64,000 nucleotides of DNA from Acephala macrosclerotiorum (lineage: Eukaryota > Ascomycota > Leotiomycetes > Helotiales > Mollisiaceae). The stretch is taken from contig MU119225.1 of NCBI GenBank assembly GCA_014904845.1, forward strand, positions 233,335 to 297,334, in the 5' to 3' direction. Within the stretch, counting starts at the first letter, position 1, and the number at the start of each line of letters is the position of its first letter. The notes under the pieces were generated by a model, which was not told the origin of the DNA, ran no database searches, and saw nothing but the letters and a program-made list of their open reading frames with translations. The translations under genes were made by a program, and so were the position numbers. Positions 39,197-64,000 of the stretch are shown piece after piece.

Positions 39197-39315
39197 ACAT
39201 ACGACCATAGACTGTGGAGAATTGGGCATCCCGTCCGCTCTGCCATACACAAGCCACAGATCGGTAGACTAGTAGTTGGGTGGGTGACCACCAGCGAATC
39301 CCTACTGTTGTATGT
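39197..39315 (+). rRNA. 5S ribosomal RNA
   Basis: 119 nt from ACATACGACCATAG to GTTGTATGT, whose ends pair as helix I with one G-U. The conserved fungal 5S blocks CATCCCGTCCGCTC and AGTAGTTGGGTGGGTGACC are present, and the CTGTGG/CCACAG arms pair. A run of six T follows (39317-39322). It is dispersed, not in an rDNA array, which is normal for filamentous ascomycetes, and is the first intact feature after the AT-rich block. Confidence 0.93.
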
Positions 39316-39316
39316 C

Positions 39317-62683: not shown

Positions 62684-62802
62684 ACATACGACCATAGCTC
62701 AAGGAAAATTGGGCATCCCGTCCGCTCTGCCATACACAAGCCTTGAAGCGGTGAATCAGTAGTTGGGTGGGTGACCACCAGCGAATCCTCACTGTTGTAT
62801 GT
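62684..62802 (+). rRNA. 5S ribosomal RNA, second copy
   Basis: 119 nt, the same length and ends as 39197-39315. It keeps CATCCCGTCCGCTCTGCC and AGTAGTTGGGTGGGTGACC. It differs in one helix, where CTCAAGG pairs with CCTTGAAG instead of CTGTGG with CCACAG, so pairing is kept by compensatory change. A T-run follows. Helix integrity suggests an active gene. Confidence 0.92.
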
Positions 62803-62817
62803 TTTTTTTTTTTTTTT
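62802..62817 (+). terminator. Pol III T-run after second 5S
   Basis: About 16 consecutive T residues begin at the last base of the 5S gene. Confidence 0.75.
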
Positions 62818-63515
62818 AGTGCGAATAATATATTATTAAGCGTGGGAATGTGCAAACGCCTACACTGTTAAGATCCCCCGAACTTTCCAGCTTTGATGAG
62901 AGCCACTGTCTGCGTTTTCTCATTACTCTCATTATTTTCTACATTTTGTGGGTCTTGTCTGCTGGTGGAGGCGAAGTGGGGGTTCAGGGGCTGCAAGCGA
63001 GTCGGGTACCCCACCCCTTTTTAGCCGTTCGAAATACTGAGAACATTGATTATATTTCTGCAAATCTGATGGCTTCAGCATCTTCTTGGTAAAGTCCTAT
63101 GACTACATGTCTGTTATGTTCATACACTCCAGTCGATAGATCCCGGAATTCCATGAATTTGCCGAGAGCTTTTACCTCTCCATGCCCAGATGTCCGGATT
63201 GTTGCGCAAGGTGATGGACTTGAGCTTCTTGCAGTCATTTACAAGACTCTCGAAAATGCCTGATATAAACGCGTATTGTTCTAAGTCCCTTAATAAGGGG
63301 AAATACAGGTCTATACGCTAAAGCTTGTCTTTTATTTATATGATCCAATTTTTGCATAGTAGCCCATTCAGCAAGTTATGGTACTATGATTAAAGTTTGA
63401 CTTAGGAAAAATAGAGCCATGTAGCCAATAACCTTTCTTGTTGCAGAATTACCTCAGAATTGTCTCCAAAGTTTCACCATCATATATATATTTGAATAAA
63501 CAACGTCTTCTCATT
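62803..63515. other. gene-free stretch before tRNA
   Basis: 713 bases. A short minus-strand frame near 63190-63250 reads like coding sequence (LKSITLRNNPDIWAW) but is too short to assign. Otherwise nothing seen. Confidence 0.35.
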
Positions 63516-63533
63516 GGACAGATGGCCGAGCTG

Positions 63534-63579
63534 GTAAGAAACATTCCACGTATTCAGCACACAACCTAAAATTTCATAG
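63534..63579 (+). other. 46-nt GT-AG insert in tRNA D-loop
   Basis: Begins GTAAGA, ends TTTCATAG, and has ACCTAAA about 12-18 nt before the end, which resembles the donor, branch and acceptor of the short introns in this window's protein genes. Both ends abut GGT, so the exact cut is ambiguous within three bases, or GGT is a short target duplication. Exact removal gives GAGCTG-GTTATGGC, a regular D-loop. Confidence 0.7.
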
Positions 63580-63599
63580 GTTATGGCGCTAGGTTAAGG

Positions 63600-63614
63600 T
63601 ACTTAACAAAAATT
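63600..63614 (+). other. canonical 15-nt tRNA intron
   Basis: Sits between positions 37 and 38. It contains CTTAA, complementary to TTAAG of the anticodon loop, the usual pre-tRNA intron-anticodon pairing recognised by the tRNA splicing endonuclease. Confidence 0.8.
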
Positions 63615-63658
63615 TCCTAGTCACGAAAGTGGCGTGGGTTCGAGTCCCACTCTGTTCA

Positions 63659-64000
63659 GAATTCTCTTTTGCTGTTTATTTCGATCGATTTGGATTTGTG
63701 GTGGCCGAGAGGGAGTTTTTGTGTGGCGGCGGTCTAGGGTAGATTAAGCGAGGAGCCGGAGGAACATTATTCCTTGGCTGAGTGTGCATGGCTCCGTCTG
63801 TGCAAAATAAGCGACACACCAAAATATCATCATATTCCCTCAACATCAATAAATCACATTTAAATCAGTGTCAAATGGTTGAATTTACAATTCATATTGT
63901 GCTAGTAACCTGTAGTATGCCCCTTTGCCAATTGGACTGCTTTGAGCCTATCTGGCATCTCATCAACCCAGTTATTTATAGACTTTTGAGAGAGTCTATC
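63659..64000. other. tRNA 3' flank, nothing recognised beyond TTTT
   Basis: TTTT at 63667-63670 can end Pol III transcription. No gene is seen in the remaining bases. Confidence 0.4.

Follow-up and report, generated by a model that had tools for sequence, protein, structure and literature searches.

The tRNA-Leu(AAG) gene on the forward strand at positions 63516-63658 of the window (the whole stretch of 64,000 nucleotides analysed here, from contig MU119225.1 of Acephala macrosclerotiorum) raises the question of whether a nuclear tRNA may depend on the spliceosome as well as on the tRNA endonuclease, since its D-loop is interrupted by a segment with the look of an mRNA intron. According to the usual view, tRNA introns are removed by a protein endonuclease and a ligase, or are self-splicing, and spliceosomal introns belong to mRNA, with U6 and U3 as the exceptions. 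An excerpt of a 2017 article (PMC5832005) names U3 and U6 as the only small structured RNAs in which an intron is known to occur often, and eukaryotic tRNA genes are described as limited to one intron in an excerpt of another from 2021 (PMC8450103). The string 'spliceosom' is absent from the main text of a 2014 review of tRNA introns (PMC4090602), and no report of spliceosomal introns in tRNA genes was found among the titles and abstract openings listed in searches of an open-licence library. A preliminary description of the locus, made from its letters, had offered three options, namely a tRNA that needs two splicing machineries, an introner-like insertion, or a recently killed tRNA gene. In this work, we analysed the window gene together with the interrupted tRNA genes found in the rest of the genome, focusing on their splice signals, promoters and terminators, and the tRNAs that their joined exons would give.

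Structure of the tRNA-Leu(AAG) gene

The elements of the gene and its flanks are as follows.

63485..63502, + strand: TATA-like upstream element TATATATTTGAATAAACA, by a position weight matrix (PWM) from 28 intact tRNA genes
63516..63658, + strand: tRNA-Leu(AAG) gene, with D-loop GT-AG insert and anticodon-loop intron
63516..63533, + strand: exon 1, acceptor strand, D-stem and first part of the D-loop (sequence, ARAGORN)
63523..63534, + strand: A box TGGCCGAGCTGG, matching TRGYNNARNNGG in the unspliced gene with 0 mismatches; the insert starts with its final G
63534..63579, + strand: spliceosomal-type GT-AG intron of 46 nt in the D-loop, after mature nucleotide 18, GTAAGA...CTAAA...ATAG (by sibling comparison)
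63566..63570, + strand: branch-site-like CTAAA, fourth base 10 nt from the intron end
63580..63599, + strand: exon 2, remaining D-arm, 5' strand of the anticodon stem, anticodon AAG and position 37
63600..63614, + strand: canonical anticodon-loop intron of 15 nt (ARAGORN once the D-loop insert is removed; exact border by eye)
63615..63658, + strand: exon 3, 3' strand of the anticodon stem, variable arm, T-arm and 3' acceptor strand
63637..63647, + strand: B box GGTTCGAGTCC, 0 mismatches
63667..63670, + strand: T4 run, likely Pol III terminator

The joined exons form an 82-nt tRNA that ARAGORN calls Leu(AAG), and the unspliced gene is not recognised; the D-loop segment proposed in the preliminary description was correct to the base, and the canonical intron and the intact internal promoter boxes it had reported were likewise recovered. 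The A box stays whole because the intron starts at its last G. The anticodon-loop intron contains a CTTAA that, by eye, could pair with the anticodon region. The upstream element scores 25.4, about the median of the 28 intact tRNA genes, and 95% of shuffled upstream sequences score below 6.8. The window also contains two dispersed 5S rRNA genes (62684-62803 and 39197-39316), both scored as full length by Rfam and each preceded by TATATATTTAAAT, which resembles the TATA-like element of the tRNA genes.

Besides the window copy, the genome holds three further Leu(AAG) genes. Those on C120 and C8 have no D-loop insert, so that the empty site is known (GAGCTGGTTATGG / GAGTTGGTTATGG), and the gene on C167 carries at the same junction an insert of different sequence (GTAAGT...CTAAC...AAG). 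In the anticodon stem, the window copy has a compensated T-A pair (CTAGG/CCTAG) at the place of the C-G pair of the C167 and C120 copies (CCAGG/CCTGG), which suggests that it is still a working gene. This compensated pair, together with the intact A and B boxes, the upstream TATA element and the T4 run, speaks against the suggestion that the window copy was recently killed, although given its intact siblings this copy could be dispensable, and its death is less strongly excluded than that of the wider set described below.

Interrupted tRNA genes across the genome

In the genome of 69.7 Mb, we found 31 tRNA genes with 41 GT-AG inserts. An anticodon-loop intron is also present in 22 of these genes; ten carry two GT-AG introns, and nine of these ten add the anticodon-loop intron, reaching three introns in one gene. 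The inserts lie after nucleotides 6, 9, 13, 14, 15, 16, 17, 18, 19, 22, 25, 30, 46, 49, 50, 51, 52, 55, 56 and 57 of the mature gene, and because tRNA lengths differ these 20 site numbers correspond, by our reading, to about 17 distinct junctions in structural terms, spread between acceptor stem and T-loop. None of the 41 falls at the canonical 37/38 site.

The genes were recovered by several routes. A Phe gene on C71, adjoining a Trp gene, has a GTATGT...CTAAC...AAAG insert between nucleotides 25 and 26; its spliced sequence, used as a query, led to a Phe gene on C19 with an insert after nucleotide 15, to one on C175 with both of these sites filled plus an anticodon-loop intron, and to a Phe 3' half on C133. 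Queries with the genome's own tRNAs gave partial matches that turned out to be interrupted genes for Met, Trp, Thr, Ser (two) and Arg, and two matches of a tRNA family search, in which 63 of 2302 candidates were scored, proved to be interrupted Glu and Lys genes. Scans for the T-arm that ignored the D-arm yielded Ala(AGC) four times, Gly(GCC) and Gln(TTG) twice each, and Gln(CTG), Leu(CAG), Ala(CGC), Gly(CCC), Arg(TCG) and Glu(TTC) once each, and a final query brought in another three genes for Gly(GCC) and one for Ser(GCT), the third of that kind. A single query combining ten yeast-like tRNA probes with the genome's own Phe sequence brought up only a Pro gene beside the Phe loci.

The interrupted share varies greatly between T-arm classes, in scans whose patterns miss introns that split the T-arm itself. 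The pattern GGGTTCRANYCCC gave 54 matches, 29 of them standard tRNA genes by reading (15 interrupted, 14 uninterrupted) and the other 25 non-tRNA Pol III genes, fragments, odd tRNA-like genes or chance matches; CGGTTCRANYCCG gave 21 matches, with six standard tRNA genes, two of them interrupted. T-arms of the AGG..CCT and TGG..CCA types gave 107 matches, of which 11 were recognised as standard tRNA genes known to be uninterrupted, and no interrupted standard tRNA was seen among 50 further ones examined. Pattern searches were extended to viral and prokaryote contig collections, where 25 loci were obtained (8 stretches with two patterns in the viral set, 17 with one pattern in the prokaryote set), none of them in a tRNA context as judged by a search for a downstream T-arm-like motif and by reading of the following 75 bases.

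The counts leave out a Phe 3' half (L073), the truncated or degenerate copies L079, L080, L113 and L170-L172, the doubtful L139 (one of the odd GGGTTCRANYCCC matches, called a tRNA by ARAGORN), odd tRNA-like genes such as L093, L094, L105, L108, L114 and L118, and one insert of Glu(TTC) L136 (G000:C98:23575-23827). The latter gene has a good GT-AG intron in the T-stem, and its D-loop insert starts with GTAAG and ends in CACGTT with no AG, possibly a decayed or unusual 3' splice site. The truncated L079 (G000:C13:103550-103830) is a Thr(AGT) copy that lacks its 5' part, lies near the interrupted Thr gene and keeps the 3' end of that gene's intron, so that the intron is older than the duplication. 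Two tRNA-Ser genes, L032 and L037, are assigned by ARAGORN the anticodon ACT and not the usual GCT.

Splice signals and sequence of the inserts

Every one of the 41 counted inserts can be read as GT...AG, each in one unique GT-AG register. With a mean of 2.3 possible registers per insert, the chance of this under uniform bases is about log10 P = -86, a figure that is indicative only, as the borders were placed partly by eye with GT-AG in mind and the D-loop insert of Glu L136 was left out. The inserts measure 46-59 nt (median 51), against 52-85 nt for only seven candidate mRNA introns of the window, themselves chosen by a required branch motif. Tested against the consensus GTRNGT, the 5' end reads GTNNG, with G at position 5, in 38 of the 41 and GTAAG in 19; the 3' ends are TAG (20), CAG (16) and AAG (5). 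The branch motif CTRAY occurs 6-22 nt before the end in 34 of the 41, compared with 11% in end-preserving shuffles, in a set of which 13 genes came through siblings or family matches with no branch filter and the T-arm candidates through a script that required the branch motif first, after which all 60 stretches were read by eye; this comparison, too, is indicative only. The seven remaining introns have TTAAC (five) or CTAAA (two, including the window intron), and with these counted in, the branch A lies 9-16 nt from the end.

These signals bear directly on the possibility that the inserts are extra introns of the tRNA endonuclease at unusual positions, recognised through a bulge-helix-bulge as in Cyanidioschyzon merolae and archaea. 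Bulge-helix-bulge introns in the D- and T-arms of tRNA are indeed described in part of the text of PMC9602550, and 22 of the 31 genes have an anticodon-loop intron as well. Such introns would nevertheless leave GT and AG in all 41 inserts and CTRAY in 34 of them unaccounted for; the endonuclease pathway has no requirement for GT, AG or CTAAC. The structural comparison favours neither side: a strict central helix of 4 bp was present in none of the 41 inserts but also in only one of the 22 canonical introns of the same genes, which makes it powerless, and a looser 5-bp helix between exon end and intron gave no separation (11 of 41 inserts, 7 of 22 canonical introns). Taken together, we regard an endonuclease origin of the inserts as very unlikely.

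A second possibility, raised in the preliminary description, is that a mobile, introner-like element was copied into these sites. Many insertions at many sites of one genome would suit such an element, as would the short repeats at some borders that accompany up to seven possible registers per insert. A BLAST comparison of all 41 introns against each other, however, returned one recent duplicate pair of Gly introns (93% identical) and one match of 12 nt, and no family. The inserts being introner copies thus strikes us as extremely improbable, although they may go back to an ancient introner burst with copies that later diverged.

Where several genes share a site, their introns are 33-71% identical depending on the group, against 39-48% with interiors shuffled; 7 of 10 such groups lie within 0.11 of the shuffled background, and those clearly above it are Gly 55/56, Ser 57/58 and Gln 18/19 (mature numbering). 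The spliced exons, in turn, are 95-100% identical where compared, a comparison that covers the groups other than Gly. Should same-site introns be paralogs, such divergence is what would be expected under selection for splice signals, with gene conversion among exons as a possible further source of the contrast; should each have been gained independently at the site, the comparison carries no information on selection.

Pol III promoters, terminators and the U6 gene

An upstream TATA element scoring above 95% of shuffles, by the PWM trained on the intact genes, was present in 23 of the 25 interrupted genes with at least 40 nt of upstream sequence examined, a few of them weakly. Two genes fall below the threshold, and for one of these, Arg on C37, the stretch starts with ATTTGAATAAACA and so may truncate the element. 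A run of T4 or longer follows all 22 genes with downstream sequence examined, in the Phe genes only after 39-41 nt. Avoidance of Pol III terminators inside the introns was not seen, with T4 or longer runs in 4 of 34 tRNA introns against 5.3 expected from shuffles, and one Phe intron has a T6 run, a possible Pol III stop.

The inserts affect the internal promoter to different degrees. In 10 of the 31 genes (Thr, Lys, Arg L151, Phe on C19 and C175, Gln L123 and four Ala(AGC)) the best A-box match is poorer with the inserts in place than after their removal, and an insert divides the B box of three Gly genes; in Arg on C37 and Glu on C96 the AG end of the intron followed by GTTC restores a whole B box. 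In fission yeast tRNA genes, an upstream TATA element compensates for the internal promoter, and by analogy the element found here may make up for the weakened A and B boxes.

These flanks are relevant to a further reading, in which the loci are transcribed by Pol II within longer RNAs and the tRNA-like exons do not correspond to translated tRNAs. Its appeal is that spliceosomal introns are mostly a Pol II feature. Against it stand the TATA element of intact tRNA genes and the T-runs just described, as well as the U6 snRNA gene of this genome, since U6 is a Pol III gene and here combines the same upstream TATA element with a GT-AG intron, read by eye as AAGGAT, GTAAGT...CTAAT...TTCAG, GACACGC (L091, G000:C261:61639-61950; the genome has four U6-like matches, and the intron was read in this one alone). 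We give Pol II transcription of these loci a minimal probability.

With the TATA motif used as a beacon, 20 matches were examined, corresponding to one U6 gene, one tRNA-like gene (Rfam tRNA) and 18 other loci with no Rfam match at E 0.1. At least eight loci (L100, L107, L110, L116, L128, L129, L131 and L132) form a family that shares a TATA-like element upstream, the hairpin AAAGGCACC...GGTGCC, a sequence TGGGTTCAAATCCC resembling a B box, and an intron-like segment starting GTAAG, mostly with ACTAAC and an AG end. The single member scanned, L100, had no Rfam match, and the family is possibly a new group of Pol III non-coding RNAs with spliceosomal introns. Another family behind the TATA element (L095, L099, L102 and L104) displays the motifs TTCAGGTCA and GGGGGACACCTCCTCACAAGGACGAC, not both in each copy, and no Rfam match at E 0.1. 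Finally, a series of tRNA-like genes, most with a TATA-like element (L200, L203, L225, L227, L232, L237, L238, L242, L244, L245 and L246), has A and B boxes and an anticodon region that by eye is odd or much enlarged; five of these (L225, L227, L242, L244 and L245) seem to form a single family whose members have CTCTTGGTG close to their start and finish in AGAGGTT or a similar sequence.

Functional status of the interrupted genes

After removal of the inserts, ARAGORN recognised the expected tRNA in all 28 spliced genes tested, the three outside this test being Gly genes truncated at the edge of the stretch examined. Eight of these 28 calls hinge on anticodon-loop borders adjusted by 1-2 nt, the GT-AG borders being unchanged. 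Thirteen genes were also submitted unspliced, of which 10 were missed and 3 misread. Empty sites are provided by intact siblings for Leu, Trp, Thr, Met and Gln(CTG), and the Phe, Arg and Ser genes serve as each other's empty sites.

It may be asked whether the interrupted genes are dead or dying copies, with intact ones serving translation. The intact siblings just named would fit such a view, as would other intact genes for Arg(TCG) and Ala(CGC), and the fragments and degenerate copies left out of the counts show that true remnants exist in this genome. In contrast, the spliced exons are intact, 15 of the 29 standard tRNA genes in the GGGTTCRANYCCC scan are interrupted, and genome queries with spliced sequences found no intact gene for Phe(GAA), Ala(AGC), Gly(GCC), Lys(TTT), Gln(TTG) or Glu(TTC); a comparable Leu query of the same genome did find intact Leu copies. 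To our knowledge, Phe codons are read by no tRNA other than tRNA-Phe(GAA), and thus, unless a diverged or unassembled Phe gene exists, the Phe introns must be removed. That the interrupted genes are dead or dying is in our judgement most unlikely, and the third option of the preliminary description, a killed gene, does not hold for the set, whose exons are perfect and which includes these six isoacceptors.

All four Phe loci (L070-L073) share, by eye, a short hairpin after the exons with stems that differ in sequence yet pair, followed by GAACACA and the T-run, which suggests that a trailer structure is conserved downstream of the Phe exons.

Discussion

With the integration of these findings, we consider it highly probable that the inserts represent ordinary spliceosomal introns of the U2 type, lodged in nuclear tRNA genes that Pol III transcribes, a reading that rests on the GT...AG ends, the branch motif, the length, the empty sites, the correct spliced tRNAs, the Pol III-type flanks, and the lack of intact genes found for several indispensable tRNAs. 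Of the three options in the preliminary description, the evidence speaks most strongly for a tRNA dependent on two splicing machineries, a description that would fit 22 of the genes found. The introns as a kind are known; it is their spread over much of a tRNA complement that appears to be undescribed in the literature searched.

A plausible course of events is that Pol III would transcribe the pre-tRNA, that the spliceosome would take out the GT-AG introns, and that the tRNA endonuclease and ligase would probably remove the anticodon-loop intron afterwards. The tRNA endonuclease measures from the folded tRNA body, and because it needs this body the spliceosome probably acts before it. Many of these tRNAs would then need both machineries. 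A similar order has been proposed elsewhere: in the part of PMC9602550 that deals with C. merolae, a red alga with multiple-intron tRNA genes, removal of the D- and T-arm introns is assumed to precede that of the anticodon intron, although the introns of that alga are described as bulge-helix-bulge introns.

The closest relatives of the introns described here are those of fungal U6 snRNA and U3 snoRNA, which are likewise GT-AG introns with a branch motif inside a small structured RNA. The present case differs from these in that the host is a tRNA, that many junctions are used, with up to two per gene, and that an endonuclease-type intron shares the transcript in most of the genes. From the canonical nuclear tRNA introns, which lie at position 37/38 and depend on endonuclease and ligase, they differ in their positions elsewhere in the gene, their length of 46-59 nt and their spliceosomal signals. 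Spliceosomal introns are also present in the nuclear rDNA of ascomycetes, lichen-forming species included; these too are of the mRNA type in a gene that is not transcribed by Pol II, but there the host is an rRNA made by Pol I and here a tRNA made by Pol III. Such rDNA introns are treated in an excerpt of PMC8527467, and a title cited in PMC11782384 refers to a messenger RNA intron in the nuclear 18S rDNA of deuteromycetes.

From the sequences at hand, it is probable that in this fungus the decoding of Phe, Lys, Gly, Ala, Gln and Glu codons needs spliceosomal splicing of Pol III transcripts, often together with endonuclease splicing, perhaps in part of the Helotiales too, and that spliceosomal introns constitute a further class of tRNA introns, gained at many sites and mostly missed by the present tRNA finder. 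An alcohol dehydrogenase encoded in the window has its best named relatives in Cudoniella acicularis (86%) and Lachnellula suecica (83%), followed by Venustampulla, Coleophoma, Mollisia and Hyaloscypha, all of the Helotiales, which as thin evidence from a single protein points to a helotialean fungus. In consequence, tRNA finders may miss many such genes, and tRNA counts in such fungi may be too low. Low tRNAscan-SE counts are given in PMC11678538 for the Helotiales Hyaloscypha hepaticicola (51), Gamarada debralockiae (50) and Helotiales sp. F229 (52). Several questions become testable, including the action of the spliceosome on Pol III transcripts, the order of two splicing machineries on one molecule, the recognition of a first exon of about six mature nucleotides, and the gain of spliceosomal introns in RNAs without reading frames. 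A requirement for the spliceosome in many tRNA genes would, if true, link the supply of tRNA, splicing and translation in a new way.
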